In this document: piece after piece, positions 8,176-54,004 of the stretch
How positions within the stretch are numbered: the first letter of the stretch is position 1
Layout of the letters: each line of letters begins with the position of its first letter
Source of the DNA: Pomphorhynchus laevis
Taxonomy: Eukaryota > Acanthocephala > Palaeacanthocephala > Echinorhynchida > Pomphorhynchidae
DNA: 64,000 nt
Assembly (NCBI GenBank): GCA_012934845.2
Contig: WNNJ02000253.1
Location: forward strand, 62,001 to 126,000
Direction of reading: 5' to 3'
The notes under the pieces: generated by a model
Database searches by the model: none
Seen by the model: only the letters and a program-made list of their open reading frames with translations
What the model was told of the DNA's origin: nothing
Program-made: the position numbers and the translations under genes

Positions 8176-8688
8176 TTTGCTAGCTGACAATATTAAAGGA
8201 TATTGTTGATCTCAGCATTTCACTAAAAACAACATTTTATATTAAAGATTCACAAATTAAAGATTTATTTAAATAATAAATAACATATACGGAAGGAACA
8301 ATTTTAAGTTATCCCTTCCGTATTATCACAACTTCCTGTATTTAATGATCAATTCCATCATTAAATACATTTGATGTAATTGTCAAGTGAAATACTTATT
8401 GAATTAGCATTTACCTTCAATGCTTGAAATTTGCAATCTCAAAGCGTTTGCTGTCGTTTCCAGAATTCTGTTAACTCTCCAGAAAAACTCGACTTCCTTG
8501 CAATCTAACTGATACAAAATCTTAACTTAATATACGTATGAAAATACACCTTTCAGCGTACTAAGAAAATACACTCAAAATAAGCATAATAAGCTCTAGA
8601 TGCACAAATCAGTTTAATGTAAAGTCCGCACTTTGAATGAATTTTTATAATTGAATAATTTCATTAATTTTCGCTTACAGAGTATTTC

Positions 8689-8942
8689 ATTATTATAGAC
8701 CCCTATTTGCATTATTATAGACCCCTATTTGCATTATTATAGACCCCTATTTGCATTATTATAGACCCCTATTTGCATTATTATAGACCCCTATTTGCAT
8801 TATTATAGACCCCTATTTGCATTATTATAGAACCCTTTTTGCATTATTATGGACCCCTATTTGCATTATTATAGACCCCTTTTTGCATTATTATAGACCC
8901 CTATTTGCATTATTATAGACCCCTATTTGCATTATTATAGAC
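8689..8942. repeat. Left array, 12 tandem 22-bp units inside the transposon end
   Basis: Unit starts fall at 8689, 8711, 8733 and so on to 8931, each beginning ATTATTATAGACCCC with tail TATTTGC. The seventh and eighth units carry single-base variants. The array sits inside the terminal inverted repeat; repeated transposase binding sites are the likely role, by inference. Confidence 0.95.
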
Positions 8943-8993
8943 CCCTCCTTCAGGTTGCTTTGGTTTATATTTAAATAAAAATTTTACCCAAGA

Positions 8994-9239
8994 ATGAATA
9001 CTCAAAATTCAGAAACCAGCAGAGAACATGAAGAAGAAACACGTAAAAAGAGACAAGTGATTACCAGAAACATTATAGAATGTTTTCTCAATCAGCAGGG
9101 AAAGGACTTAACCTTTAAGGACATGTCTTCTATATTAAACCTATCAAAAAGTACAGTAAAAAGGTTATATAAGAAATATCTCAATGGGGATTTTGTTGAT
9201 TTAACAAATTTTAAAACTGCTGGAGAAAAAAAACAGTGA
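8994..9239 (+). CDS. Transposase N-terminal part (helix-turn-helix DNA binding)
   Basis: The 81 codons contain a homeodomain-like helix-turn-helix (VITRNIIECFLNQQGKDLTF then MSSILNLSKSTVKRLYKKY), as found at the front of Tc1/mariner and IS630 transposases, where it binds the terminal inverted repeats. The start is the first ATG after the left inverted repeat. The frame closes just after a run of eight A at 9226-9233, and the catalytic part follows in another frame. One intact transposase split by a single-base indel in that run is the simplest reading; programmed frameshifting is possible but not shown. Confidence 0.8.
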   Translation: MNTQNSETSREHEEETRKKRQVITRNIIECFLNQQGKDLTFKDMSSILNLSKSTVKRLYKKYLNGDFVDLTNFKTAGEKKQ

Positions 9240-10045
9240 ACTTGAAAAATTTGTCGTTTGAGAAAAGCATTTTATCTACAGAGATAGCTTCTAACCCATA
9301 CGCAAGTCTAAAAACACTGCCATCTACTCTTTCTTCATACAATGCTTTAGGTTCCTATTCCATTTCAACCGTCTCAAGAATCATAAAGAAAATGAATTAC
9401 ACAAGGAAGACGCTGACCTTGGTTCCGATAAATAGAAACAGTAACATCAACAAAACAACAAGGGCCCAATATGGAACAACTATCAATACGATTGCCGATG
9501 ACAGATTGATTTTTCTTGACGAATCTGGGTTTAATCTACATTTGCATCAGAAAATGGGGTATTCGCCAAAAAATACGAAGTGTTTTATTAATGTCCCAAA
9601 TTCGAAAGGTGTAAATGTTTCACTGCTGTGTGCTATAACAACTTCTGGTGTTTTCGCACATAAAACCAAAATCGGAAGTTTTAAATCTATTGATATTATA
9701 GAATTCATTTCTTCAAAGTTTCCACCGTTAGAAAGCAACAACAGGAAATATGTAATAATGGACAACGCATCCATACACAAGACAGCCGAGGTTCGCGAAG
9801 CGTTTAACATGAAAAACTACATACTTATGTTCTTATCTCCGTACTCTCCTCAGCTCAATCCTATTGAGGAATTCTTTGCATGTCTAAAAGCAAGAGTCAA
9901 ACAACGACCCGCATCTACCAATCCTCAAATGCTTATTGGTGTAATTAATGACATAGTTACAAATGATAACTTCATAATGACTGGATACTTTGAACATATG
10001 AGAAGATGGGTTTTACAAGCAATTGTACATGCTGATTTTATTTAA
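9236..10045 (+). CDS. Transposase catalytic part, DD34E of the IS630/Tc1/mariner group
   Basis: The RNase H-like fold carries the acidic triad: first D in RLIFLDESGF, second D in YVIMDNASIH, and E in SPQLNPIEEFF with 34 residues between the second D and the E. The enzyme would cut at the TA-flanked ends and paste elsewhere. The first methionine in this frame is well inside the domain, so translation must come from the upstream frame. Apart from the shift in the A run the 269-codon frame is open to its stop near the right inverted repeat, so the copy is young. Confidence 0.88.
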   Translation: MNLKNLSFEKSILSTEIASNPYASLKTLPSTLSSYNALGSYSISTVSRIIKKMNYTRKTLTLVPINRNSNINKTTRAQYGTTINTIADDRLIFLDESGFNLHLHQKMGYSPKNTKCFINVPNSKGVNVSLLCAITTSGVFAHKTKIGSFKSIDIIEFISSKFPPLESNNRKYVIMDNASIHKTAEVREAFNMKNYILMFLSPYSPQLNPIEEFFACLKARVKQRPASTNPQMLIGVINDIVTNDNFIMTGYFEHMRRWVLQAIVHADFI

Positions 10046-10109: not shown

Positions 10110-10332
10110 GAACCAAAGCAACCTGAAGGAGGAGTCTATAATAATGCAAATAGGGGTCTATAATAATGCAAATAGGGGTCTATAATAATGCAAAAAGGGG
10201 TCTATAATAATGCAAATAGGGGTCCATAATAATGCAAAAAGGGTTCTATAATAATGCACATAGGGGTCTATAATAATGCAAAATGGGGTCTATAATAATG
10301 CAAAAAGGGGTCTATAATAATGAAATACTCTG
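10110..10332. repeat. Right terminal inverted repeat with 9 tandem 22-bp units
   Basis: From 10134 the units read GGGGTCTATAATAATGCAAA in reverse orientation to the left array. Units five to seven carry variants. The inner border AACCAAAGCAACCTGAA mirrors the left element border, and the outer tip ends CTCTG before TA. Confidence 0.93.
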
Positions 10333-17400: not shown

Positions 17401-20400
17401 AAATACATCGAACTTGACAGCTTTGTATACGAGTGTGTCCCGGTGACGATAAATAATCTCGGTCATTCCGGCGAATCTACAATAGGTTTATTCGCGTCAT
17501 CGGGAATTGATTAGGGTAGATAACTCAAGAGCAACGTGCAGGTAGATGGCTGCTACAGCGCATAAGCCCTGAAATTCAGCAAGGCAACAGCGCGTGAATG
17601 TTGGAAGCCATGTCAACAGACTGCGTCTCGTCCGCTTTGTTCTAAATCACTTGTATTTCTTGTATTACAATTATTTAAATGTTATTTAGAATTATTTTTT
17701 ATTTATAAAAAATAATTATAATTTATGTTTAATAAATTATAAAAACAAAAACTAGAAAAAAAATGCAGCTTGCACGTTAAAATCATATTATGTTGTACGA
17801 TCATAAATCTTTAGTTTTTAACATGACCATTTGTTTATATTAAAGATATAATAATTCGCAAACATATCAATTTAATTTATATTAAAATGTAATTGATTTA
17901 ATTGATTATCTTTTGATTTAATTGATTATCTTACCAAGCTGTTAATAGCTTTTGGCTCCCACTGAAATTGTTCAATAACCCTATCCAATACAGCCTTTTC
18001 AGCTTGATTTGTTATTGAATCATGAGATTTCTTTTTCCATCCATCTTTTACAATATCTACAAAAGAATTAAGTAGCGCTTCTCTAGCTATCTAAACCTTA
18101 AAAATTATTTTTATTGTGTATTCAAATAAAAATTACCTTAACACATTGTCCGGGCAAAATATCGTCTATCGCTCTTGCTAAGTTTATATCAACAGTAGTT
18201 TCAAAGCCTCTTTAGATAAAAATAGTATATACATATAGTTTACTAATAGACGAAATTACGCTTTACTGCCAGATTCGTATGCCTTCATTAGTATGTTATC
18301 TATAAACAAGGTTCGAAGCGAACTCCACATTTGATCCAAAAGTTTTGATTGCCTGAGAAAACAAACTGAAATTCGGAAATTCGACAATAAAAATCACATT
18401 GTATGTCGCGTTAGCTATCAGCAAAATACTAACACATTAAGGCGTTTTCATAACGAATACGCATTTATAGATTTTATCAGATATTCTAGGTCTTCTTATT
18501 TCGATTATTTTTGATTTATTATTTTATTCTTAAAATTTATAAAAGTTGTGCCGATAATGAAATCGGATAATAAAATTTGCAAAAGTAAACCATTAGACAT
18601 AAATCCACGCAGTCTAGCTAATAAAACGAAATCATCTTTAGTAGTTGAATCAGTCACCATTTTTGATTTCAAAAGACGGATGCCTTTTGATTGGCTCAAA
18701 TTGGTCGAAATACCTCTCGAATAGCATTAATATTTAGATTAACAAACTGATGCCAGCATTAGTTTAATGATTTTAAAATAAAATAAAGAAAACGCATTGT
18801 TTATTTTAACTAATTTTTGAAAACTTTACAGAACAATTTTAAATTACCATTGATCAGGATGTATTTCTCCCAGTTTGACAAGTTGATCTAATAGCTCGTA
18901 TCTTGTTCTGTCAAATAAATCATCCTATAAAGAAATTTTTAGACCATAAAGAATCAATTCTACTAATAAATCTGTCAATTTATAAATCTATAAACATTAG
19001 AATTTTTTTGATCTGGTGTTTCTCCTTATGGGGAAATATGACGGATGAATAATAACGCAATTTCTAAACTACGCAAGAAGCTATAATTGGATATAATGAG
19101 GAAAAGGAAATACTTACACATTTTCCTTCATTTGTCCAGTTTAACTCCCTTTTATCCCTTTTACATCATTTAACCACGCTATTTGCCTCCTTAATGTTTC
19201 ATATAATAATACTAATAAATATTAATACTAATATTTATATTAATAATAAATTAATATAATATTAATATTATTGATAATAATATTTAATATTAATATTGTT
19301 AATATTATTATTTTATAATAATTAAAACTATTAAACAATTAAATATATGAATTAGATAAATTATATTTTGCTGTATTAATCAAGTAGAATAAATGACGTA
19401 AAAACATATTTGAATATTTGATGATTTACTATATTTGACTTGCCCAAAATTATTTATTCTGGACGAAAAAAGAGTAAAAATAAAGATCTTTGTATAAATC
19501 ACAAGCTATATGTTTAAAAACGTTTTTATAATAGTTACAAATATTTGACTTTAACTATGACATACTTTGATTTACAATTCCATAAGCTTTTGTATTTTAT
19601 TTATAAAATTAAATCAATACGGAGGATTAGTAACATTCATATTTAGACGAATAAGAATGTTCTAATGGGAAGTTGTAGTAGCCCAATTATAGCTGACTTG
19701 TTTTTAAGCTTTATAGAATATGAATTTGTTCATAACTGTTTAAAAACTAAATCTAATATATGAAATATATGTTTCGATACATTGATGATATATGTGTATT
19801 TAATTCTAGTAATTTTTATTCAATTAGTTATTCAAGTAGCCTTAAATAAAACTAATATTGATGAAACTAATATTATAAAAACAATATAAAACTAATATTA
19901 TTATATTATTAATATTATAAAATTAATATTAAAATAGGTATCATCCGGATATTAACATAAAATCAGCATAAATTAAAACTCTTATTAGATGAAATTATAA
20001 AAATAATAGTAAATAGTTGATAATGATCCGTTATTGATAAAGAATTATTGTAGATGGATCAAAGAAAAGAAATTAAAGAAATAAATTTTCAAAATATAAA
20101 TACATACGATTTTAGTACTCTTTAATACAAATCTAGATTTAGTAGATATTAAAGAAGCGTTAGTAAAATTAATTAATCTTATATTCGGAAAAAGATATAC
20201 ATATATATGTTATAATAATTATAACGCCTATCTAACAAAAATTAAACCATCAAGTAAATATAAATATATGGATAAAATTGAATTAATAGAATCCTTAAAT
20301 ATTTTGATAAATCAAAATTATTTAAAAGTAGGGACATCCATATTTAGACAAGTAAAAGGTGTTCCAATGGGTGGTAATAGTAGCCCAATTATAGCTGACT

Positions 20401-22098
20401 TGTTTTTAAGCTTTACAGGATATGAATTTGTTCATAACTATGTAAAAACTAAATCTAAACAATATAAATATATGAAATATATGTTTCGATACATATTCGA
20501 AAATATATATACATATATATGTTATAATAACTATAACGCATAACTAACAAAAATTAAACCATCAAGTAAATATAAAAATGCACAAATTCATAGATCGAAT
20601 ATCAAGGACTATCAAGGACTAGACAAGTAAAAGATGTTCCAATGGGTGGTAATAGTAGCCTAATTATAGCTGATTTGTTTTTAAGCTTTATAGAATATGA
20701 ATTTGTTCATAACTGTGTAAAAACTAAATCTAAACAATATAAATATATGAAATATATGTTTCGATACATTGATGATATATGTGTATTTAATTCTAATAGT
20801 TTTTATTCAATTAGTGAGCACAAAACTACTATTAATTTATATCGTAAAGATGACATATTTTAATTTACAAGAAACATATTTTTGCATGAGCATTCATGCA
20901 TACCATATAATATAAAATATAATACATTAAATAATGAAATTTTAAGAATTGCAACAATATGTAATGATATTGGCTTTCTTCAAAATTATTTAAATAATTT
21001 AATAGATACATATTTTAAACTAGGTGACTATACAAATCTACATTTAGTAGATATTAAAGAAGCGTTAGTAAAATTAATTAATCTTATATTCGGAAAAAGA
21101 TGTACATATGTTATAATAATTAAAACGCCTATTTCAATAAGCGGACAAATTTATTCAGGTAACCTTATTCTGAAAAACACTAATTTTGAATTAGTGTTTT
21201 AACTATTAGTGAAAACACTAATAGTTTTTAATTAAACACTAATACTAAGTATATGTAATTTAATAATTACATATAAGTAATTATTATAATTATACATTTT
21301 AAGTAATTTAACATAAGTATATGTAATTTTATATGAAAATAAAATTAGCATATTATTAAACTCTTATAAAATTAGAAATTATGACTTTCAATCGATCGAC
21401 CTCCTTTAATGCACTCATCAATCGGTACATAAAAAAGATAAGTTATACAAAATCTTTTTTAAATAGGGCTTTCTTTTATTAAATTTATGTAAAAAAAGTA
21501 AAGTTTATAAAAAAGTTAAGTTATAAAAGTTCTTTTTAAGATTAAGGCTTTCTAAATTTATGTGATCTGATTTGTCTCATTTTATGCTGAAATACAAGAA
21601 TCTACGTTCTTAAAAAAATTGAAATATAACTAAAATGTTAAATTAAATTTAAACTAAATGAAATGTTCGAACTACTCAAAATTATCAAATAAATGTCAAA
21701 AAAATATTAAAATTCTCACTCGATTTTGCTGTCTAAGAGAATGATACATGTTTTTCCATTCAGCTTCAAGATTGTATCTCGTAGCTGAAAGCGTACATAT
21801 TTATTTATTTAAATTTAAGAAAGTAAAACCTGTGTATGTGTCTAACTGATGGACAATCGATTGTCTGACCATATTCCAGAAACAACTGCTAACTGCTAAG
21901 CTTAAATTTCTAGTGGTGATTTGACCAGGTTTGAGAATTCCATCTCTAAAAAATATAAATAATTTGAAGTTACAAAACAAACCATAATATAAAGACGTTT
22001 AACTTTATTTACCGACGTAACTCACTTGACTAGTTTCGAATTATGAAAAAATGTCCGTTCGTGCTTATTAATCGCGTCAATACTATCATGTGGGTTAC
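14442..22098 (-). CDS. OPA1: OPA1 middle-domain exons 13-23
   Basis: Exon 13 ([17 protein letters not shown]) links the GTPase to the stalk. Exon 14 has [20 protein letters not shown], very close to animal OPA1; exon 15 has [10 protein letters not shown] and exon 16 [13 protein letters not shown]. Exon 19 is the longest (52 codons). Exon 23 holds a cysteine pair (CYACNQFF) like the conserved CNLC region. The next exon, starting the effector domain, should follow the donor at 14441 but was not recognised. Introns 14/15 (45 nt), 17/18 (50), 18/19 (46) and 21/22 (43) are tiny. Confidence 0.9.
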
Positions 22099-25000
22099 CT
22101 AATATAGCACAATTTAGTTTCCAATTATCATAATAAGTAAATAATTTAATGAATACATAATTTAATTACAAAAATAGTAAACGCAATTACAAAAGCAATA
22201 AATAAATATATATTATAAAATATAGCATCGCGAAAAATCAAATAATTAGGCAGAGAGCTAATTTTATGTAAACTTTCGGTCCTCTGAGGATCCGCGGCGG
22301 TGCTGTTTCCTTTGTAACTATATTGATCAATTAATGATCTATTTGATGTCTATTACACTGGATGGAATTCACTGCATTGTATTGACTTTGAAAGCGAAAG
22401 CTACGGCATGCAATTAGCATATAGTGAATTCTTTCTGCTTTAATCTATATATAGTATGTTGTTCATGTCTATACATTGTATTGCTGCCACTGATGAGGCT
22501 TCTCAAAGCCGAAACGGTAAGCCGTCTTGCAGTGTAGAAGCATGAAATTCTCTATATACAGAGGCAGATAGGTGTAATAGACAGTTCTGGTTGAATCAAA
22601 CCTCTAATTTATTTATTGATCCTCTGAGGATCCCAGGCAGCGGTACTTCTTTTCTTGTTTATTTTATTGATCAATTAATGATCCCACTGATGTCTATTAC
22701 ATTGAAAAGAATCCACTGAATTGTATTGACTTCGAAAGCGATAGCTACGTCATGCAATTAGCATATAGTGAATTCTTTCTGCTTTAATCTATATATAGTA
22801 TGTTTTTCATGTGTATTCATTATATGTGCTGCAACTGATGAGGTTTCTCAAAGCCGAAACGGTATACCGTCATGAAACATGAAATTATCTATATACATAT
22901 AGGCAGATAGGTGTAATAGACAGTCCTGTGTGAATTACATCTTTAATTTATTTATTGATCCTCTGAGGATCCCATAGTGCGGTGTTTCTTTTGTTGATTA
23001 TATATATTTATTAATCCGTAAGCATACATCTTATACACTGCACTAAGCTAATAGTTTAATACATCTGAATATATCTGCAAAAACATAACATATTTTATTG
23101 TAAAAAAATGATCGTCTTTTACAGAATAAATAAACACATTTTACGAAATCGTATAAAATTCCCGAAATTAAAAATATTAAAAAATAAAATCAAAATCGTT
23201 TAATATTTTAAAGATTAAAAAGGTATGACTCAATGAAAACAAGTAAAATTATTAGCTGAAACATAATATAATATATTTTTTATTTGTACTCGATTTCCTA
23301 GCAATTAAAATGCAATTATTTCAATAAAACTGCCTTCGTTCAAATATATTTTTTAAATAATAATCACTAAGAGATAATTACTGGTAAAGAACACACAAAG
23401 ACGAAATATTTTACAAATACGTTTTAATTTATTTTTCTTACAGAACCGTTTTAAAAAGAACCGTCTCATATTTTTATATACAATATCGAACCGTCTTAAA
23501 TAAGAACCGTCTCATATTTTTATATGCAATATCGAACCGTCTTAAATATCAATATAATATCAATATGCTATATTGATACCGTCTTGTAGGTTACTAAAAA
23601 ATATAGCACAAATACAGAAACATCTTTTACATCAAATAAATAAACATCTTTTACGAAATCATATTAAATTCCAGAAATTAAAAATATCAAAAAATAAAAA
23701 CAAAATCGTGTTATATCTTAAGATATGAAAGACGTAGTAAAATTAATTGGTATAACAGTCAAACCATTTCGTTACTTTTCATTTTTCAGTTTATAAAGAA
23801 CTTTCAAAGTGTTTGACAACGGATGTTAGAAAAAACTACGCTATTTCGTATGGCATTCAGTAAGAATGTCTTAATATTAAATTACATAATTATAATTCAA
23901 ATATTATTGAAGATCTTAAATGTGTACATAGAAGAGTAAAATTCTTTAATATTGGAAAATTATTGTTCGAAAGAGACAAAATTAAATTTCACCTGTTCCG
24001 GTAACGACCGCAAAGTATCCAAGAGCCTTCATAGGAAAAAGCCGTCCCTCAAGAATACTTTTAAGCTATAAATTATTTGTATTATATTTCAAAAATAATC
24101 ATGAAAGCATACACGATCTGGTTTTAAATGATTTTCCTCTGCAGCATCGACTTTTGTTAGAACAAATATAGTGCGCTTCCCTTTCGGATCAATTGAGCTA
24201 ACAAGATCAGTGACATTGCTTCGCTCAGCATCAATGCTTCCGTCTAAAAATTATTAGAAATATACAAATGTTTAACAATTATAATATGCATTAAACCATT
24301 TTCAATTAAAATACCAAGTGCACTTTGTCATGTAGTATTTAATATTGGAAGTGATTTTTAAAAGTCATTACATATCCCTTATATTGTAAAAATAATGACC
24401 AATATGAAAGGGAAGACATTGACATTTTATTTTGTGAATAAAATGGATATATAAGAGCACGAATCATTATAACGATCGTATTTTATAGTGTAAAATACAT
24501 CATTAATAAGGCTTTTCAAGGTTGCAATTATGCGTATATATCGCATTAAATACAAATTCTTTTTTATCGATTTTGTAATAAAAATCAATTACATCCTTCA
24601 AAACCGTATTTGCACCTTGTATACATAGAATAATTGCGTTAGGATTCAACAAATGATTTTTTGCTAGGTTGTATATTGCACGCTTAGTATTCGTTGCCAT
24701 GCCTTGTGTTTCAGTCTAAAAAGAATTAAATAAAACATTTGCGAACGTCTGTAAATAATCAAAATACACTTATTATTCCTGGAAGATCAATAAGAACCAT
24801 TCGTTGCAATCCGGGGCCCTTTACGTTCAGAGAAATAACCTAAACATTATATAAGTGGTGTGATATTCTCTTAAAATATTTTATATTCTCTTGTATTCTC
24901 GCAAACACGTTACAAATCGCTGAAAATAATATTATATTATTTAAACCAAGAATAGTAAAGAATATAGGAAAGAAAATAGTATAAAATTTAAAATCGCCTT

Positions 25001-28000: not shown

Positions 28001-31000
28001 TTTTAAAAATAATTTAAATCGTTTCAAAAATTATTTTGATATATTTTTAGATATATATATATAAATCGATTGCTAGATCGATTATACTAATTATACGTAA
28101 TATTAAATAACATTGAAAATTAATGAGAAATATATCGACGAATATTAAATTTTTTAACGATAAAGGATAAGGTTTGTACATTTAAAATTATATATTTACG
28201 TTTATAAATTGAATATGTTTTTATATTATAAAGTTTTAATACATAAATTAATTTTTTAAGTAACCTTTCCGCTAATCGTTTCGCCTGATTTAACTGCCAT
28301 TTTCATTTGTTTTTCAATTTCATCTCGAAGCTCCTTTTGCTATATTGAAAAAGGTTAATAAATTTTATAGTAAATAACATTACTTCTTGCTCGCTTGTCA
28401 GGTCATACTCGCGTGAGCTGTTCTTTAATTGAGCAACATGGTATGGGCCTTGACTAAGTGTTACTTTAACTGGACTACGAGTCATCATTTCACCGGCTCC
28501 TCTAAACTCAAAATTATGCACAAACATACAGTACGAATGGGACTTTGGAATTTAGTGAACTGGAAATGCTAATTTAATAAACATTGAATATCAAACATTG
28601 ATATGTTTAGAATTGATTTATTTATTAATTCAGTAAAATGAATTAATAAATTAATTCAATCAATAAATTTTAATAATTAAACTATTAAATCATTTATTTA
28701 ATTATTTAATTAAAATAAAACAAATTTTATCAAAAAGAATGTCATTTATTTAATTAAATTATTCAATACAGAAAAACAGAAGTAAGTTTTATGTGTAAAA
28801 TTAATAAACAAATTAAATATCAATTAATATAAAAATCAACTATTGCGCGGTAATTGAATTTTGCTGTTAATTTGTAAAACTTTTGAAATTCTGTGATTTA
28901 TGTGAAAATCGAATTAAATTTCTATCAATTGCACAATTTCTACTTAATAAATAATTTTTTGGTAAGTTCTTATCAAAACAAAAAAACGAATTAATATGTT
29001 TTCTTAATTTAATTATTAATTTTAGTTAAACTAACTTATTAACTTGAAATTTATTAACATCTGCGTAGATCGAATTAACTTTACATCAATTATATTAATT
29101 CTTACACAGGTATTTTACTCTTAAAAGAGTAAAATACCTGTGCTATATATCTTTTGGAAATGTTTTATTCTCGTGAAAATCAAATAAAAAATATAAATTT
29201 AAGTATGCAAATGTTCACGATAATATAATTTTTATAACGATACGTATAAACATTAAGATCACTTAAATCACACGAAATATTTTTTGCTATAAATAAAAAA
29301 TATATAAATATTTTGATATAAAAAAAGAAATTATATGTTATTCATAAAGCGATTAATAAATAACATGCAATGTTTGGAATGTAAAGGCAGAATAAACAAA
29401 ACACAAGTTTAGTTTTATATTTCGATAGCTGCTTCTAGCGTCCTAAAAAATATTAAAATAATAGTGTGTATTTGTAAGCATATGCTAAATTTTCAACTGC
29501 ATAGGATTTAGTCAACTGTTTAGGGATTTATAAATAATAACAATAAAGTTTGAAAGCCCTTCATCTCATAACGACCTTGTCTGTACATTTATCAAGTTTT
29601 GTGGTAAAAATATACTTCAATTGCTTTGTCGAAATTGAACTTATTTGGCAAAACAAACCTTGGGAATATTCTTGCTTGAGTGATCATTTCCAAAACACTT
29701 GTCTTTCCGGAACTTTGATCACCAATTACAACAACCTAAATTACAGTTTCAGTTAATTAATTTCAATAATAATTTCAATAAACTTTATTTATATGTGAGA
29801 TAAATATGAAATTAAAGTATTTAATGATATATTACTCGAAATACGCGATGTAAAAAATATCCAAGGTTGATGACAATTAAATAATCATATCATTCACAAT
29901 TTTACAGATTTATTTTTAAATTATAAGATCGTTTTATTATTTTCAATTAAGAAAAAATGAAAAATTTCTGTTTAGATAAAAATTAAAATAGGTATTTATG
30001 CAAAAAAATGTACTCTTGAGTATATTAAAATAAACAAGGTATTTTTGTTTTTTTTTGTAAAAACAATATAATGTAAATACTCGTGTTTGTACCAGAGACA
30101 ATTTTTTGGACAGAAACGATCCTATATATTTTATTTATCTAAGAGTCATCAATCGATCATCAATCATCAATTGAACTGTATCAATTGATCCATTCGAAAT
30201 TTTATTTAATCGAAAAATGTATATTTGTAAAATGATTTTGTTAGAAGAAATCAATTCTTCATTAATCCAAGAATATTAATATTAGAATATTGCATTTATA
30301 AAATTATTATAAAATTAATAATATATAATTAATACAGAGAGCATTTTTTTAACAGCAAAAGAAAAATAGATCAAAATTTGACTGTGATAAGTTTCAATTA
30401 ATAAAACTCAGGGTACGCCGTTTGTTCAGTACCAGCGCTAGCAGGATGGCCCCTCGTTGATCGTGCAGTCCGGAGGCACATTGATGCAGACTTGGCCACA
30501 ACGATGCTTATTTGCGAACGTAATTTTCTTATCAGATCACTATAGGTGTGTAATCCCCTGCCCGCACTTAGTGACGCAATTCTTTTGATCGTCAAGTCCG
30601 CCGATGGTCCAATAGCGCCGTTTTCTGTGATGACAAAAGGTATGAATGATGCTCTTTCACACGGTCACACTCTCTCCTCATACTTGGCCCGCTTTTGACT
30701 CTCGTGATATTGGAAAGGGGTGTTGTTGGGAGCATTTGACGGGGCTAAGTGATTAAATGAGCAAAAGTCCAACATAGACCGCTTCGTCATGCTTTCAAAT
30801 AATCCACGGCATTCCACGTCCAGCCTGGCATCACAATCTATAGTTGTTAATGATCTCTCAAAAATCATATTTTCATCAAGTAGCTGAAGTACTGGCTCGA
30901 TTGCCACAGCAGAGCACACATTGGATAGTTTTTTGCAACAAGGTCCCTTAGAATGTTATGCCTGATTGTTCGCATCCCTCGCGTCTCACAGGAAAGAGTA

Positions 31001-34000
31001 TGAGTAATGCTGAATTCTTCTCCGCATTAACATTTGTGTGGGACTAATGGAGGATATCAGCCGTAGCGTGCTGCCAAGGCATCGCACATTGGATAGTTTT
31101 TTGCAACAAGGTCCCTTAGAATGTTATGCCTGATTGTTCGCATCCCTCGCGTCTCACAGGAAAGAGTATGAGTAATGCTGAATTCTTCTCCGCATTAACA
31201 TTTGTGTGGGACTAATGGAGGATTTCAGCCGTAGCGTGCTGCCAAGGCATCGCGAAATTCAACCAGGCTTAGGTTCATGTTATTGGCGCGAAGAGGTTTG
31301 CAAGACAGCCACGATGATGCACTTTTTACTTTTACAAAACACAGACGCGCGCCGATGGGTCACTGTTACTCGGTACTTGCTGTCTTATTTGGGCATTGAT
31401 TTGTGTCTTCTCATTCTAAAATAAGATTTATTAAGAATGCCATTCCTTTAGCATGATCGAAGTTCTTCTCCTATAAAGCAATATAGTAATGGTTTGCTTA
31501 GTCTCCTAGAACGCTCCTAATCCAATTAGGGACTAGTGGAGGGATCATTGATGCCAAGTCCACCTTCATTTAAAGGCAAGAAACAAACTGACTGCCTTAA
31601 TACATTTAGTTCGATCCCAATAATGGCTGGTATAAAATGTTTTTTAATCTAAGGAGACAGTTCGTCGTAGGCATCATTAGAGGTTAGACATGAACGCCAG
31701 AGGCAAGCCCATTTAAATTGTGACGATTGCGTAAACTCGGCATATGATATCTGGGGTTCCTCCTTTGCAAACTCGACTAGTCTGTTTACCAGTATATTCT
31801 ATTATTTGATTTTCGACTTCACGAATGTGTCAGTCTAGACTATATCAGCAATGACAGACCAAAGTACACGCATTCCTGATGTCATTATGTTGATCTCAGC
31901 GTTTTGGAAAAGATTACTTGCCTAGGATTGGTTACTGCTTCGGGTAACGAGTTAGCACTTTTCTTTGCTTATGAAAAATCCATATTGAGGCACAATTTAA
32001 CAAATTGCCTCGCACACCGCAAGCAAATCATTAGGTGCTCCAAAACAAATTCCGTCATCGGCATACCATCTGTGTACTACTCCTGGACAGACGTGTGAGA
32101 CCCTTAGTAAGCGGTTGAATAGCTGCTGCGAAGGCCAGCATTGCCAAGGGATCTCCTCGAGTAAATACCTCTTTAGATAATATTACTTCATCCTCAACTG
32201 AAAGTGTAGAGTTTGTTCCGTAGATATTACGTAATATCGTCGTTAGCCCCGGAACCGTGAATATTATATTCTCTAGCGCGAGCAGACGGTTTACACGTTT
32301 GAAAGCATTACTAGCGTCAAGTTGAAGAGCACAATATCCAGGGTTGTCTTACAAAAGTCTTCCAACAGAATAATAATTAATAAATAATTATTTATTACTT
32401 AATAATAAATTAATAAATAATTATTTAATTATTTATTTTATTATCATTTGTTTAATAATAAACACAATACTAACCTCCAAAATTATTGCCTGCATTTCTA
32501 AATTTGCAAAGAAAATTGAATTTTAGCGAATCAAATTCATGAATTTTCAAACTTACATAGCATACTAGCTCAAGAAAAAAAGAATACTTGGATGTCCGAC
32601 TAATGTATGCGGAGAGAACGTACGAAACGACCGTGTATCGTAAGGTTGCGTCGAAGCCTATACGCATCCATGCGAAGAGTTACCATAAAGATCGATCAAA
32701 CATAATGCAATATATAATGAGGCCCGAAGAATGATACGTATATGTTCACAGCAAAGCATATTTTAAGAACTCGAAAAATTGCAAAATCAATTCAGAGAGC
32801 CAGGGTACAAGTTCTCAATGATTAGATCACAGATAAACAGGTTAGAAAGATGTCAGGTAACTCATCACTAATGCAAACACTAAATGTAAGCAAGGATAAA
32901 ACTCTAATTATAACAGTTATTCCGTTCCATCCAATACTAAACACGATAGAGACTAAGATTCGTCATATAGCAAACACTTTAGATCAATCTACACAAGTTA
33001 AAGTGCGATTCAAACTGGGTATGAAAATTAGTTAATATTTATCAGATAATTCATGTCGATTAAATGGGTAACAACCGTGCAACGACAAACGATGCAAAAC
33101 TTGCGCCGTCATTGAAAATAGCACGATTGTGAAGAGCATTGTAACTAACGGATTTGAACAGATCAAAGGTATGAGTAGTTAAGAAACTCCAGGTGTAACT
33201 AATGTAGGAACATGCTCGTTATGTGGTAACCAATACGTCAGTAAAAGCAAATTAGGTTTAGCAAGGAGCCTTAATTTTAGACGGTATCGAGCGAATAACA
33301 TAAGTGATGGTGCAATAAAACATGCAATGGAGCATCAGATTATGGACTGCATGAAATATTGCGTAGTTGACTTCAATGTTAGTGATGTGAATCAACACCT
33401 TAAATTAGAAGCGACATTAATAGGTCAGCTACATACAGATACGGACTCGGGTGCAACCCTAATCATCTTTTCAGAGATCCATGAATTACATAGACTATGA
33501 GTCTTGGCGTTTGACCAAGACTGAGTCTTGGTCAAAAGGACTCTTGGACTTCAGAAAATCTTGTTTTAGCAGGATTTTGCCTTTCAATTTTCAATAAATT
33601 ATATATATAGAACTATAAATATAAATCGAACAAAGTCACAATGGTTTATATATAGGAAATTTGAAGTACAAATCGGTAAAAGCAATGATAAGGAACAAGG
33701 AAATAAGAGCGATTAAGATTTGATTAAAAAATTTGATCTGGAGTTATTTCTCAAACGTTTTAAGGCAGATATTTTATGTAGAGGTTATTCTGCACACCAG
33801 ATTAACAGACAGCTTTATGAGGTTAGAAAAATGTATATAGAAAGTAGGAAATAGAAAGTAAAATATGTTAATACGGAACGCCTAATAGTGGATTTTCATG
33901 GACAATTATTTCACATCGGTGGAGATATCAAGCAATCTCACAGTGAACTAGATAGATTGATAAAAAAGATTGTTAAGCTACCGATAATTTTCGAAAGATA

Positions 34001-42855: not shown

Positions 42856-43606
42856 GGAGAAGTTCTTGAAGCCTCAAATATTTGCAAGCGATCCTGATAG
42901 CAGTTCTTCCTCTCAAGAATGGTCTCATTGGAAGTCAAAATTTCAATCGTTTATTTCTTGTTTGGATAGCCCATCTGATGCGCAACAACTTTCCTTGTTG
43001 GTAAATCTGTTATCGACGCGATTATACTTGCCGATTTCAAAATGTACAACTTTTGTGGAGGCTGTCTTTATACTCGATGGTATACTGCTCCATCCAATCA
43101 ACTTAGTTTTTGCTCGGTATAAACTTCACAGTTCAACACAAACCGACAATCAGACGTTGTCGCAGTATGTTCGTCAATTGGAGGCGCTTGCGGATGAATG
43201 CGATTTCAAAGATGTGGTTGCATTAGAGAATAGAAAACAGCATATTCTTGATTCTTTCATACAGGGCATCCGATCGTCGTACATTCGCCAGCGACTGTTG
43301 GAAAATAAAGCCAACTCGCTCGAAGAAATGTTGACACTTGCATACGCGTTAGAATCCGCACAAGTTCAATCCGATCAATTTCGCACAACTGAAAATCAAA
43401 GCGACATATCGCTAAATCATTCATCGTCGGCATCGATTAACAAAATCGAAACTCGTCCTTCAAACACTAAAGAATCGGTATTACACACGAATCAACTTAA
43501 TTGTTACTTTTGTGGTCGAGCTCGTCATTATCGCACTGCTTGTCCTGCTAAAAATGCTACTTGCTATCAATGTGGAAAAAAAAGGACATTTTGCATCAGT
43601 GTGTAA
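42854..43606 (+). CDS. Gag of the Ty3/gypsy element
   Basis: This is 250 codons. The capsid-like region (WSHWKSKFQSFI, LLVNLLSTRLY, LSQYVRQLEALADECDF, and SLEEMLTLAYALE) has the layout of Ty3/gypsy Gag, followed by a serine-rich linker and a CCHC knuckle (CYFCGRARHYRTAC). A second knuckle starts CYQCG but is cut by a frame change in eight A (43576-43583); the rest lies in the pol frame, so Gag and Pol probably shared one frame as in Tf1. Confidence 0.88.
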   Translation: MEKFLKPQIFASDPDSSSSSQEWSHWKSKFQSFISCLDSPSDAQQLSLLVNLLSTRLYLPISKCTTFVEAVFILDGILLHPINLVFARYKLHSSTQTDNQTLSQYVRQLEALADECDFKDVVALENRKQHILDSFIQGIRSSYIRQRLLENKANSLEEMLTLAYALESAQVQSDQFRTTENQSDISLNHSSSASINKIETRPSNTKESVLHTNQLNCYFCGRARHYRTACPAKNATCYQCGKKRTFCISV

Positions 43607-44534
43607 GTCATCGAAAACTTCGCATATCACTGCGACCCTGGAATGCCTTTCGTCTCGCATCTCTCCACGTTTGTCAAATCAACTGATGAAATGCACTGAG
43701 ACAGTAGAAATTCAATCTCAACAAATTGTGGCACTTATTGATACTGGTAGCACGCACAATTTTATCGATTCTTCGACTGTACACTTATTAAATCTTTCAA
43801 AATTGAAGTGCAATGAACACGTAGTAATGGCTACGAAATCAACAACTAAGCAAATCACCGAATATTGTATCGTAGATATGGTTTTTAATGGAATCTCATA
43901 TAAAACTGTAAAGTTTTTCGCGATGGATAGATTATGTTTTCCGGTAATTATTGGTCTCGATTTTTTGTCAAAATTGAAATCTCTTACTTTAAATTTTAAT
44001 GGACAGTCATCATCGGTGCAAATCAATCACATTCAGTCTGCCAAACTAGAAGCTCCTGACCTATTTCCTAATCTGCCTTCAAATGTAAAACCCATTGCAT
44101 CAAAATCTAGACGTTATAATTATGATGATCTCGGTTTTATACGAAAGGAGATTCAAAATTTGCAAAACGATGGAATAATTGAGCAAAGCAGATCACCGTG
44201 GAGATCTCAAGTACTTGTCGTTCGTTCTCAGCTTCACAAGCCACGAATGGTTATAGATTATTCCCGTACAATCAATTACTATACTCAATTAGACGCATAC
44301 CCCTTACCGAATATTCAAGCGATTATAGACAGGGTATCGACTTTTAAAGTTTTTTCAAGACTTGATTTATCGTCTGCCTATCATCAAGTATCTATTCGAA
44401 AGCAAGATAGACCGTACACAGCCTTTGAAGCCAATGGACGTCTGTGGCAATTTTGTCGATTGCCCTTCGGTATTACTAATGCTGTTCCCTGTTTTCAACG
44501 ACTGATGGATTCAGTTATCGAAGAAAAGAATTAG
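43584..44534 (+). CDS. Pol part 1: protease and reverse transcriptase
   Basis: After the end of the second knuckle comes an aspartic protease with the active-site triplet in VALIDTGSTHNF and a flap/second half ending VIIGLDFL. The RT starts with PRMVIDYSRTIN, then VFSRLDLSSAYHQV (first catalytic D) and FCRLPFGITNA. The frame closes near 44534 just before the YLDD box, which continues in another frame. Confidence 0.9.
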   Translation, partial: GHFASVCKSSKTSHITATLECLSSRISPRLSNQLMKCTETVEIQSQQIVALIDTGSTHNFIDSSTVHLLNLSKLKCNEHVVMATKSTTKQITEYCIVDMVFNGISYKTVKFFAMDRLCFPVIIGLDFLSKLKSLTLNFNGQSSSVQINHIQSAKLEAPDLFPNLPSNVKPIASKSRRYNYDDLGFIRKEIQNLQNDGIIEQSRSPWRSQVLVVRSQLHKPRMVIDYSRTINYYTQLDAYPLPNIQAIIDRVSTFKVFSRLDLSSAYHQVSIRKQDRPYTAFEANGRLWQFCRLPFGITNAVPCFQRLMDSVIEEKN

Positions 44535-48755: not shown

Positions 48756-51489
48756 TAAAAAAACGATTTATTTTAATGTGGCAAATGCGTGCCAGCGCAC
48801 GCTTACATGACCACAACAAAACAAGACTGTGAATCAGGTGTCGAGAAGGTGTGAACGGAGGAGGTGTTTGAATGTGATAAAGGAGGGAGCGCGGCGGACG
48901 TCGAGAGGAAGTTGATTCCAGGCGAGTGAGGCGGCGACGAGGAAGGATCGGAGACCGTAGTTGTTGGAGTAATTAGGAACGTGGAGTAAGAGGGTATGAC
49001 AGGAACGAAGCGATAGCGAGGTGGGGCGAGTATCGTCTAAGAAAGGAAGGTTGATGAACGATGGGGAGCCGACAGCGATGAGACGAAAAGTAACGAGAAG
49101 GCGGAGTTTGATGCGGATGTGGATGGTGGGCCAGGAGAGTTGGGCAAAATATGTGGATGTGTGGTCGAAGCGACGGAGACAAAAGAGCACTCGAACGGCG
49201 GTGTTGATTATTCGTTGTAGGAGTAGGATGATGGATTTTGGAGAATTGGCGGAAAGGCTAAGGCAGTAATCGATTTTAGGGAAAAGAAGCGATGAAAGAA
49301 GAGACATACAAGAACGGAAGTCGATAAGGGGGCGGATACGGCGGATGTCACGGAGAATTAAGTTAGACGAGCGGACCTTGTCACGGACGAAAGGTTTAAG
49401 GGAAAGGTGATCATCGAAATGGAAGCCTAAGAAAGTGAGATTGTGGACTATAGGGATGATCGATGAGGCAAAAGAAACAATGGGAGGAGATATGTTTGGT
49501 TTACGGGGGAGGATCCACATTATTTTGGACTTTTCGGGGTTTAGAACGAGATGGAGATTGGAGAGACGTTTGTAGATAGAAGAAAGACAGTTGGAGGCAG
49601 AAATGCCGATATCGTGTATGCGATGTGCGGGTGCATGAGCATAGATTAGAATGTCATCGGCGTATTGCATGACCTTAAAGGAGTAAGGTTTGATAAACGG
49701 AGATAGATCGCCAAGCAGAAGAGAGAAAAGCATAGGACCTAGGACTGAACCTTGTGAGACCCCGCAAAAAATAGGGATGGGAGGGGAGGATGATGAATTA
49801 GAACAGACGCGAAAGGAACGGTCGGATAGGTATGAGGCGAACCATGCTACGGAGGAGGAAGAAAATCCGTAATCATAACGAAGGCGAGAAAGGAGGACAG
49901 AGTGATCGACAATGTCGAATGCGGAGGAGAGGTCGAGGGAGATGAGAACACTATATAGAGCCTTGTCTCGAGAAATGAGTAAGTCGTTGTACACTTTTAT
50001 GCATGCGATTTCTGTCGAGTGATTAGAGCGGAAAGCGGATTGGAAAGGAGGGTACAGATTGGATGAGGAGAGATAAGCGTTGATTTGTATTAAGATGAGG
50101 CGTTCTAAGAGCTTAGAAAGAGTAGGGAGTAGCGAAATAGGGCGATAGCTATAAGGAAGGGAGGGGTCGAGCGATTGTTTTTTAAGGAGGGGACGAACGA
50201 TTGCGGATTTCCAGTGTGAAGGGAAGATACGACTGCGGATGGACGAGTTAAACAAGGTTGTGAGAAATGGGGATATCGATGAGCATATAGATTTTAATAT
50301 GTGGGTAGGCAGGGGATCGGCGGGTGAGGTTTTGTTGGGCAAGGACATGAGGACAGATGATATTTCTGTAGGTGAGACAGGGAGAAGATGAAAGAGTTCC
50401 GGAAGGATGAGGCTAGGCGGGGCAGAGTGGGATAGGATGGAGACCGGGGTGTGAGAGAGCAGCGTGGATACTTTAGTCTGGAGAAATGACGAATAATCAT
50501 TAGCATTGATGTTGCACGGCGTAGAGGAACGAGCCAGGATTGAGTTAAAAGTATGCCAGAGAGTCTTAGAGTTGAATGAAGTGATGATTTTATGCTGCCA
50601 GAAGGAGTTGCATTTGGTACGTAGTAGGTTGAGATGAGACCGGCGAAGAGCAAGATAGGAATCACGGAAAGACGGAGTGATCGAGTGGAAATCGCGTCTG
50701 AGAGAGCGGTGATAGACTCGAAAAGCATGGCGGAGTCGACGCTTTGAGAGTAGACATTGGATGTCAAACCATGGGGCACGGTGCAAGCGACGGTGTGTGT
50801 GAGATTTGAAGGGCAAGAGAATATCGAGAGTGGATGTGAGTTCAGAGTTGAAAAGAAAGGCGAGATTGTGAGGAGATGAATATGTTATTGTGGGTAATGA
50901 TAGAGACGATTTGAGAAAGGCAGAACGGAAAAGGGAGAGGTCAAGATTTCTCAAAGGGCGACGTAGGATTGTAGGTGTGTGAGGAGGGTTGTGGTTGCGA
51001 GTGAGATCAAGGGTGATAAGAAAGTGATCGGATAGACCAGGATCAGAGATGGACAGTGAGGTGTAGGCAGCAAAATGATCGGGGACAGCGATGATGTCGA
51101 GTGCTTCACCAAGTATATGTGTAAGGGCAGTGGAGATTAGTTTGTAATTGTAGTTGGATAGAATGTTGATGAAGCGGATGGAATCTGTGGAAGAGGGGCG
51201 GTCTAGGCGGATATTGAAGTCGCCTAGAACGAGTGAAGGGATTGAGGACAAAGAACAATGAGAAAGGAGGTCAGCGAGTTCGGTAAAAAATAAGGCTGTG
51301 GGAGCTGATGAACCAGGACGGTATACAATGGCGAGATCTAGAGTGATCGGGTTAGAATAACGACAAGTGAGCAATTCAAAAGAGCAAGGACTGAAAGGGG
51401 GATTGATTTTGCGAAGAGACGCTGGGTGACGCGCGAATGCGACGATGCCGCCATGATTAGAGGATTTAGAAGGGCATGAAAAGGGCATG
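48756..51489 (-). mobile_element. L2-like LINE copy A, young, 5'-truncated, inserted in copy B
   Basis: The copy runs from a hairpin-bearing 3' end (48787-48802) to a 5' break at about 51489. AGAGT on both sides (48750-48754 and 51492-51496) looks like the target duplication. It is nearly identical to the inverted copy C at 54.0-55.5 kb, so both are recent. It lacks ORF1 and the first part of the endonuclease. Confidence 0.88.
48834..51488 (-). CDS. LINE ORF2: AP-endonuclease (partial) and reverse transcriptase, 884 codons open
   Basis: Order from the N-terminus: endonuclease from NHGGIVAFARHPASLRK through SLVLGDFNIRLDRP to the catalytic end DPGLSDHFLITLDL; linker; RT with YSYRPISLLPTLSKLLERL, SLDLSSAFDIVDHSVLLSRL, GVSQGSVLGPMLFSLLLGDL and the catalytic YADDILIYAH; thumb with LTFLGFHFDDHLS; a closing block (LAWNQLPLDVRRAPSF). 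The wording fits the L2/CR1 group. The first methionine lies in flanking sequence, so it has no native start, and about 75 N-terminal residues are missing. No internal stop: the longest open frame in the window. Confidence 0.9.
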   Translation of the reverse strand: MPFSCPSKSSNHGGIVAFARHPASLRKINPPFSPCSFELLTCRYSNPITLDLAIVYRPGSSAPTALFFTELADLLSHCSLSSIPSLVLGDFNIRLDRPSSTDSIRFINILSNYNYKLISTALTHILGEALDIIAVPDHFAAYTSLSISDPGLSDHFLITLDLTRNHNPPHTPTILRRPLRNLDLSLFRSAFLKSSLSLPTITYSSPHNLAFLFNSELTSTLDILLPFKSHTHRRLHRAPWFDIQCLLSKRRLRHAFRVYHRSLRRDFHSITPSFRDSYLALRRSHLNLLRTKCNSFWQHKIITSFNSKTLWHTFNSILARSSTPCNINANDYSSFLQTKVSTLLSHTPVSILSHSAPPSLILPELFHLLPVSPTEISSVLMSLPNKTSPADPLPTHILKSICSSISPFLTTLFNSSIRSRIFPSHWKSAIVRPLLKKQSLDPSLPYSYRPISLLPTLSKLLERLILIQINAYLSSSNLYPPFQSAFRSNHSTEIACIKVYNDLLISRDKALYSVLISLDLSSAFDIVDHSVLLSRLRYDYGFSSSSVAWFASYLSDRSFRVCSNSSSSPPIPIFCGVSQGSVLGPMLFSLLLGDLSPFIKPYSFKVMQYADDILIYAHAPAHRIHDIGISASNCLSSIYKRLSNLHLVLNPEKSKIMWILPRKPNISPPIVSFASSIIPIVHNLTFLGFHFDDHLSLKPFVRDKVRSSNLILRDIRRIRPLIDFRSCMSLLSSLLFPKIDYCLSLSANSPKSIILLLQRIINTAVRVLFCLRRFDHTSTYFAQLSWPTIHIRIKLRLLVTFRLIAVGSPSFINLPFLDDTRPTSLSLRSCHTLLLHVPNYSNNYGLRSFLVAASLAWNQLPLDVRRAPSFITFKHLLRSHLLDT

Positions 51490-54004
51490 AAGAGTTTGAG
51501 AGATGTAAAAGAAGGGAATTACAGTAACGCAAGGAACAGTAAGCAAGACAAGAATTATCAAGAAAAGGAAGGTTGAGAAATGAAGGGGTATGAAAAGTTA
51601 CAAGGCGGAAAGCAACGAGAAGACGAATTTAAACACTAAAATAAATTGTAGGCAAATCGAGAGAAGCAAGATAGTGGGATGTATGATCAAAACGACGAAG
51701 ACGGAGGAGAAGTCGGACAGCTGCGTTGATGATGCGTTGTAGTGGAAGAAGAGTGGATTTGGGTGAGTTGGAAAATATACTAAGACAATAATCGAGTCTA
51801 GAAAAAAGTAGAGAAGATACAAGAGTCATACAAATTGAATTAAAAAAATCCAATACATTTGGATTTATTAGCTTTCAGAGAAATACGAATGAAAAAAGAT
51901 GATTAAAATTGAGGAAAGACAGTTGGAAGCAGAAACACTAAGATCATTAATACGATAAGCAGGTTCATGAGCATAGATGAGAATGTCATCAGCATATTGC
52001 ATAACATAAAAGTTGAATGTATAAGAAATCGAAGACAAGTCACCGAGAAGAATAGAGAAAAGCAAAGGGCCTAATACGGATCCTTGTGAACACCTGACGG
52101 GATTGAAAAATGATGGGAAAGCGAGGAGTTAGAACAGAGTAAAATGTACAGTAATTAGATCGAAAAGAGGCTTGGAAGGAAAAAAATAAGTTTGAGCAAA
52201 ATATATATGCATTAACTTGCTTGAGAATGAGAATTCGGTAGGTTTAGAGAGGGTTGGGAGAAGTGAGATAGAACGGTACGAAGATGGTAGTGAGGGATCG
52301 AGATATTGCTTTTTAAGGCGAGGATGAACAGTGGCGCATTTCTAGTTGGAAGGAAATGTGCAATTACGGATAGACAAGTTGAGCAATGTTGTTATGAAGT
52401 GTGAGATATAATATCAGATATTTTTAAGTAAGTGAGTGGGAATTGGGCTCAAGGAGAGGTTTTATTGGGTAATGGCAGAATGACCGAATAAACTTTGTCA
52501 GACAAAACGGGAAAGTGGGATAGCTCTGGGAGGGAAGTATTTTAAGAGAAGAGAAGATATAAGGGGCATATGGGTAGAAGAGAAAATAAATTAGATAGTT
52601 AGATTGAATATAGGAAGAAAATTTATCTTCAGATTTTCTAATGAGATTTAAAGTTGGAAGAGGACTTGAGTTGATTTCGCGAAAGAAAGTACGTTTAGAA
52701 CGCATATGAATGAAATTGGACAGCGAAGAGAAAGGTAGGAAGCACGGATATTTAGAGTGAGTGAGTTTAGAGAACGTGAAAGAAAGCGATTAATCACACG
52801 ATAAGTGACGGAGTGGAAGCTTAGAAAGACTACAGTCCAAATCGAACCAGGAAACATAACGCAAGCGCAGAAAACGTCAGGGTCGACTAGGCAGAAGCTG
52901 ATTGAGAATAGTTGTAAGTTCAGAATCAAACTAGATGCAGAGATCATCGGGAGAAAGATAGTTATGTGAAAGTGAAAAGAGTGAGAATTGGGTAAGGTTG
53001 CCCAGAAAATGGATATATCGAGAAATTTCCGGGGTTGACTTGGATTAGCTAATGTTAGAGGTGGAGAAGAAGGTTGGAGACGAGTAAGAGTGACAAGGAA
53101 ATGATCGGGCAAACCAGGATCAGTAATTACAAGGAGGTATATGCATTGAAGCGGCTGGTAATATCAATGATGTCGAGATCATCACCGAGGATATGAGTTG
53201 GGCTTGTTGAAAGTAATTCATAGTTAAAATAAAAAGGTTTGTTAGATTGATAGTCAGAGTCGGTCAGGCGATCAAAACAAATGCTAAAGTCACCGAGAAC
53301 AAAAGAAGGATATAAGACAATTATCAGTGAGAAAAAATATCTGCAAGCTCACTAGAGATCATACATGAGGGTGTTAGCTGAGTCTAGACGGTATACAATC
53401 ACGAGTTCGATTGGGAAAGGACTTAATGACCTACATATGAGCAATTCGAACGAAATGGAACGGATGTTAGTATTAAATTTACGTAGAGACGTTGGGTGAC
53501 GAGCAATGGTAACAATATTACCATGATTAGAAGCAGTGGATGTGGAAGAGACAATTGGACGAGCTGATATAACAAGAGAACAACCAGAGCGACATAAACG
53601 ACAAATGGCAATATCTTTAGAGTCAGGGTGCCAGGAATTGGTAATGCGGATAATATCGATAGATAATTGATCAAATATATCAATGTGCAGATTAGCTTTA
53701 TGAAGAACAGAGTGAGTGTTGAAGTATGAAGTGTTGAAAAGTTTGTTTAGGACTAAACGAAAAATATGTTCAGGAGTGATATCGACTAGCAAAGAAGAAC
53801 TTGGGGAGAGACGGGACGCAATTGGATTTTTGATCTCGTGCGTACGATGTAGAATCTTCAAATCTTCGAATCGTTGCTGATTAATAAAATCCTGTCAATA
53901 ATTGGAAATATGAAGAGTACGTTCAAAATCTTCAAATTTTTTCAATGGATTTGCAACCTTAGAGGACGGGTATACACTGTCAACAAGTTTAGCGAACTGG
54001 GGCC

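Follow-up and report, generated by a model that had tools for sequence, protein, structure and literature searches.

We find that a short tandem array in the window (the whole 64,000-nucleotide stretch of Pomphorhynchus laevis DNA analysed here) is very probably a decayed insertion of a non-LTR retrozyme of the metazoan type. Taken alone, this array adds one more family to a known class; on the reading developed below, the same genome would hold canonical and permuted ribozyme repeats side by side.

The array is outlined by a blastn alignment with a 351-nt family consensus, which places it at 22278-23008 on the plus strand of the window (window positions equal positions in our locus L001 plus 20764). 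It is 731 nt long and contains 2.1 units arranged head-to-tail; an initial annotation had identified the same array with slightly different bounds, 22265-23000. Two 37-nt hammerhead cores, at 22490-22526 and 22835-22871 (both plus strand), have their core letters intact: each contains CTGATGA, a 5-bp stem II with a CTCA loop, GAAA and GTC, and stem III in both consists of 3 bp and a 4-nt loop, plus an A-U pair. Cleavage of the first is predicted after position 22526, and the predicted cleavage sites of the two cores are spaced 345 nt apart. The array thus has a single complete cleavage-site-to-cleavage-site unit (22527-22871, plus strand, 345 nt), together with a 5' partial unit (22278-22526, plus strand, unit positions 96-351) and a 3' partial unit (22874-23008, plus strand, unit positions 11-149) that terminates in a TATATATATT stretch. 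In hairpin register, the same DNA reads as copies of 340 and 339 nt and one partial. The longest stop-free stretch inside the array is 57 codons, which, together with the core positions, bears out the earlier description of a head-to-tail, non-coding array with two such cores at 345-nt spacing. The GC content is 0.356 for the array and 0.379 for the family consensus.

The array is flanked by coding stretches of OPA1 on the minus strand. On one side lies the stretch 21819-21950 (residues 267-310 of 6jtg_A), and on the other a frame at 24089-24250 that includes an OPA1 coding stretch (residues 176-220 of 6jtg_A); a further minus-strand frame, 29592-29735, matches OPA1 residues 29-54 of 6jtg_A. 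The ribozyme strand is therefore antisense to OPA1 and, as first proposed, the array sits between OPA1 exons on the opposite strand, from which we infer that it lies in an OPA1 intron. Another minus-strand frame in the window, 17926-18090, has no match in the PDB.

The anatomy of the family, its copy number, its core and stems and the pattern of its junctions can all be observed directly in the genome. Used as a DNA query, the window array returns at least 111 matches (39 of 458 candidate regions scored), and a consensus-like unit returns at least 226 in the 249-Mb genome (39 of 479 candidate regions scored); the initial annotation had named a lack of other copies as evidence against its reading, and copies are instead abundant. 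Some matching units are identical between contigs (C2244, C1917, C863), which points to recent spread. We cut 75 complete units from 40 family loci (L001-L008 and L021-L052), two of them counted twice because L005 and L007 overlap: 41 are 351 nt long, 19 are 349 nt and 15 are 342-350 nt. Identity to the 351-nt consensus is at least 0.949 for 65 of the 75 (95-99%), with a full range of 0.864-0.994. Across 38 loci (L007 and L050 are excluded as overlapping or duplicate), 90 of the 121 family cores pass a filter for all three stems, which demands 6 bp in stem I, 4 or more in stem II and 2 or more in stem III.

The window copy is more diverged: its complete unit has an identity of 0.889 to the consensus, against the value of at least 0.949 that holds for most of the family. 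All 8 pairs of stem I form in the family consensus. Among the same first 8 pairs, core 1 has one mismatch (C.U at pair 2) and core 2 is mismatched at pairs 1, 4 and 6, so the "complete hammerhead cores" described at the outset are complete in their core letters and not as whole ribozymes. When the whole window is compared with Rfam at gathering score there is no match. The best hammerhead model for both cores is HH9 (RF02275), at 23.3 and 14.1 bits, and neither core reaches the curated cut-off of 52 that defines the Rfam family; sub-threshold scores for both cores had been listed in advance as an outcome counting against the hammerhead reading, and this is the outcome we obtain. In the 13 loci scanned, HH9 is again the best model, with a top score of 30.6 bits that is also below 52.

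Compared with shuffled sequences, window unit 1 folds better (z -2.41) and window unit 2 does not (z -0.61), and the hammerhead fold is absent from the minimum-energy folds of both units and of the family copy L008. The consensus-like unit reaches -118.6 kcal/mol (z -6.9, with none of 100 shuffles as good). Folded as a circle, the consensus has a best energy of -116.0 in a structure where the 3' strand of stem I is paired with an upstream copy and no hammerhead forms, against a best of -105.3 with the hammerhead enforced, all of these energies ignoring tertiary contacts. The ribozyme may be masked, or the folding model may miss such contacts.

What, then, could the window copy produce? The initial annotation proposed a 345-nt circular RNA. 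The spacing of the predicted cleavage sites agrees with this length, but its release from the window copy is doubtful because a circle needs both cleavage sites and the second ribozyme has a broken stem I. The exact damaged stretch after core 2 occurs in just two places genome-wide, separated by 72.5 kb on the one contig C1440, a pattern suggestive of local copying. Judged by these features, the window copy appears to be old and unlikely to release a circle, and it is probably inert or weak.

Membership of the retrozyme class, as first suggested, is supported by the tandem structure, the core and the many copies elsewhere. Published metazoan retrozymes consist of tandemly repeated units that carry type I hammerheads and yield RNAs of ~170-400 nt (PMC7229834, Cervera and de la Pena 2020). 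We define the class by short tandem repeats of ~150-450 bp present in many copies, a type I hammerhead, non-coding sequence, GC below 50%, the absence of LTRs, primer-binding sites and polypurine tracts, and target-site duplications that, when present, are longer than 4 bp. The family has the unit length, copy number, type I hammerhead, non-coding character and GC content of the class; the window copy has the type I core, with stem I mismatched in both units. In intact members, the type I (CGS) hammerheads would cleave a transcript of the tandem array at every GTC, and a host RNA ligase would close the resulting ~350-nt monomers into circles. A reverse transcriptase supplied from another locus would then travel round such a circle for more than one turn, and the tandem cDNA that it makes would be inserted by it. 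We infer self-cleavage, circles, ligation and the enzyme by analogy with published retrozymes. Insertion would take place preferentially at TA-rich sites, where the target would pair with UA-rich tracts of the RNA.

The junctions of the arrays bear on this last step. Of the 3' ends mapped in the same 38 loci, 33 of 38 fall at unit positions 75-96 or 131-149, adjoining the AT-only tracts 81-95 and 136-149 (two of the four such tracts in the unit), although TA repeats are hard to align and may blur the position of ends at AT-rich tracts. The 5' ends (n=39) are scattered; the five that coincide with position 1, the cut point of the consensus, may be an artefact of that cut. Within 20 nt of the end, a (TA)3 or (AT)3 is present for 18 of 38 3' ends and for 13 of 39 5' ends, compared with 202 of 3919 background 20-mers, and head-to-head inverted arrays occur in 4 of 38 loci. 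Ends that lie inside the unit, with sequence crossing the cleavage site, would fit copying of a circle or multimer and not of a cut linear monomer. Such details (3' ends near AT-only tracts, TA-rich targets, inversions) offer testable detail on how retrozymes insert.

The same junctions also give some room to the view that the family is ordinary satellite DNA, spread by unequal crossing-over with the hammerhead as a passenger. Ends are often at TA repeats, and no clear target-site duplication is found in the 40 loci, where the longest exact repeats across the ends are short or are TA repeats, which confuse the search. One long array exists (L029, 24 pieces), and the two C1440 places that share the damaged stretch of window unit 2 resemble local copying. 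However, short arrays are scattered over many contigs, some with identical units, a dispersal that unequal exchange alone leaves unexplained; some arrays are inverted, and the core and stems are kept in 90 of 121 cores. We therefore regard a pure satellite origin as improbable and prefer the retrozyme reading.

The retrozyme reading calls for a reverse transcriptase from elsewhere, for which the genome offers a candidate. A retroelement that contains an open frame of 908 aa occurs in great number (150 of 12279 first-look candidates were scored). The frame matches no Pfam family even at E 1 and nothing relevant in the PDB, and a homology search returns 14 proteins, one 96% identical and the others 27-37%. 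Among these 14, PF01541 is found in three and PF00078 in three, domains that we take to be GIY-YIG and reverse transcriptase, respectively, and from its motifs we presume the element to be Penelope-like, of the Naiad type. In the window itself, an open fragment at 20100-20543 (plus strand), without a Pfam match, reads as reverse transcriptase of this very abundant Penelope-like family, and two other frames, 43416-44534 and 48834-51518, have a reverse-transcriptase match. Copying of the retrozyme by a retroelement reverse transcriptase is plausible; reverse transcription that starts inside an RNA is described for one Penelope-like element (PMC11167929).

Could the array simply be a piece of such an element, its terminal repeat with its own hammerhead, and not a separate retrozyme? 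The reverse-transcriptase family is very abundant, the window fragment lies ~1.7 kb from the array, and Penelope-like elements occur in tandem and can carry hammerheads (PMC11167929). Nevertheless, we consider this very unlikely: the unit has no significant similarity to 15 element loci (best E 0.48), the repeated end of copy L054 is a different sequence, and the family hammerheads were looked for in the Penelope-like element loci and not found. The repeated end of the element has GAAA and CUGAnGA blocks in another arrangement. Fragments of this end at window 7929 (plus strand), window 12806 (minus strand) and L055:2163 contain GAAA, CUGAnGA and a possible cleavage-site block upstream, and could be read by eye as the order SGC. 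Their putative SGC stem I shows one double change, but stem II is separated from GAAA by two surplus bases, which weighs against this reading.

That the hammerhead letters are a chance match, or that the core serves another role, is an equally slim prospect, for although it would account for the sub-threshold Rfam scores and for minimum-energy folds without a hammerhead, the canonical-order pattern has 1474 matches genome-wide against 0 for the reversed pattern, and these span several different sequence families, some of them tandem.

Some further canonical-order families were observed alongside the retrozyme family. One, with the hammerhead-like core CTGATGAGTCATTGTGATGACGAAACGGCATTCGTC, has 11 cores spaced 299-306 nt apart at C196:243986-247051 and is also found on C19, C22 and other contigs. 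A palindrome in L048, a variant of this family whose core recurs genome-wide, was rejected as a hammerhead because it failed a separate stem filter; it resembles a miRNA model below its cut-off. Another family has cores 368-369 nt apart (C161:92902-93308 and C46:47265-47670), and a 463-nt repeat (in L022) has by eye a canonical-order hammerhead with a tiny stem III and failed that separate filter. The window contains other repeats as well. Tandem repeats of 22 bp at 8683-8946 and 10130-10327, in opposite orientation, flank an ORF (9215-10045) with a DDE_3 endonuclease match, and the whole may be a DNA transposon; a 168-bp repeat at 30917-31253 is present in two copies with 99% matches, and is thus probably recent.

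We now consider the sequences that flank the family copies. Several of these flanks are tandem repeats, with periods of ~360, 364-379, 393-394 and 463 nt, and all except the 463-nt repeat have the block order GAAA, CUGAnGA, cleavage site, a non-circular permutation known as type GCS. This order occurs in families F2, F3, F4, F6 and F7, and in F11 from one sequence; places with such repeats include L008, L046, L049, L032, L067 and L068, among others. Genome-wide, the pattern GAAACGN{14,26}CTGANGAN{14,30}CGTC has 5105 matches (2782 + 2323), compared with 5 for the reversed pattern. Adjacent matches are spaced 357-358 nt (C54), 360 nt (C87) and 363-364 nt (C28) apart, with longer spacings of 390 nt (C35) and 398 nt (C46, C71). 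The two kinds of repeat tend to be found together: the 40 retrozyme-family loci (157497 bases) contain 27 type-GCS matches in 14 loci where 3.22 would be expected at genome density, in a sample where L005 and L007 overlap and L046 and L050 are near-duplicates. A wider type-GCS pattern combined with a stem filter has a match in 19 of 55 loci and none in the window. The order CSG has 13 matches genome-wide (control 3), at least 2 of which are also F3 repeats. The order SGC has 626 (control 5), and because most of the first matches listed belong to one F12-like family or to GCS families that have a CGTC close by, we do not count them as support for type SGC. F12 itself (L066) was tried as type GCS and rejected, since a stem filter gives it 2 bp in stem II and no stem I at all.

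If these blocks form hammerheads, their stems should be kept as sequences diverge. We examined an alignment (A2, made with MAFFT) of 23 sequences from four families and 18 pairs, 7 of them in stem III, the number counted there because a gap is misplaced in this stem. F3 copies with a 16-nt insert are excluded both here and from the larger set of parsed sequences described below. In A2, 92.3% of 414 cells are paired, and sliding one strand by 1-3 columns lowers this to 28.0-50.4%. Changes on both sides are found in 61 cells, where shuffling gives a mean of 22.9, and the covariation score of 0.412 compares with 0.185 after shuffling; none of 500 shuffles reaches either value, though shuffles overstate the case since the rows are related. 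Two other measures are not above the shuffles: 10 pairs show double changes, a count that 130 of 500 shuffles attain, and there are 20 further pair types, attained by 324 of 500.

For six family consensuses, pairing of strands from the same family is 0.97, 1.00 and 0.98 in stems I, II and III, and falls to 0.63, 0.75 and 0.43 across families; of 720 reassignments, 2, 6 and 1 reach the observed totals for the respective stems. In this test the strands are hand-chosen, F11 is one sequence, and F2, F6 and F11 have the same stem II. In a larger set of 44 distinct parsed sequences, all three stems are present in 24 and 20 fail under a filter of at least 3, 5 and 6 bp for stems I, II and III. Of the 44, 20 were hand-picked for variety from 100 listed matches of the 5105, and two F4 rows (L045) are labelled F7 by the label rule, which does not affect the totals. 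Exchanging the outer strands for those of a different family leaves both stems I and II in 156 of 1562 combinations. Taken together, these comparisons of aligned and parsed repeats indicate between-family covariation in the predicted type-GCS stems I, II and III.

The geometry of the stems raises the question of how such a hammerhead would close. Of 13 loci, six have stems II and III directly adjoining (0 nt) and one has 1 nt between them, and stem III in these seven measures 9-15 bp; the remaining six give link values (-5 to 7) that are not meaningful, as mismatches shifted the longest helix. A separate parse of the blocks gives a link of 2 nt, which is set by how the blocks were cut. In the hammerhead structure, stems II and III stack coaxially (PMC10085705), so that their far ends would be distant, and a single unit could hardly close on itself without opening a large part of stem III. 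The CUGAnGA block occupies the apical loop of this stem. From there it could pair with strands at the base of stem III of a neighbouring unit, in which case the far ends of that unit's stems I and II would be bridged by stem III of the first. With this arrangement, tandem transcripts would cut and a single closed circle could not cut itself again, a topological lock. On balance we favour, from the repeats themselves, a large set of retrozyme-like repeats (units of ~357-398 nt) whose type-GCS hammerheads would be completed by the neighbouring unit and whose circle would be locked. A precedent can be found in amphibian retrozymes, which act as dimers for higher cleavage rates (PMC7229834).

How do these repeats compare with known systems? 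The retrozyme family differs in sequence from the metazoan non-LTR retrozymes of PMC7229834. Its junctions favour TA repeats, of which the consulted passages of that paper make no mention; the term "microsatellite" has 0 occurrences in the paper. HH9 (RF02275) is the best Rfam model for the window cores, but the scores are sub-threshold, the sequence is different and the setting here is a tandem repeat. Penelope-like elements code for protein, and in the 15 loci compared they have no sequence in common with the array.

Type GCS was named by Eckert et al. 2023 (PMC10085705) from one bacterial sequence, in Caballeronia peredens, without covariation. Cleavage of this sequence in vitro was incomplete and proceeded at 0.014 per min; the biological relevance of the type was called unclear because a single sequence gave no covariation. 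Within the literature searched, outside of which most subscription papers lie, PMC10085705 is the one source with the term "type-GCS", and no natural example backed by covariation appears. The several diverged families described here provide covariation evidence on the relevance that Eckert et al. 2023 left open. The published type GCS is one bacterial sequence that cleaved, whereas here it is thousands of pattern matches in animal tandem repeats, with covariation, seen at the level of sequence.
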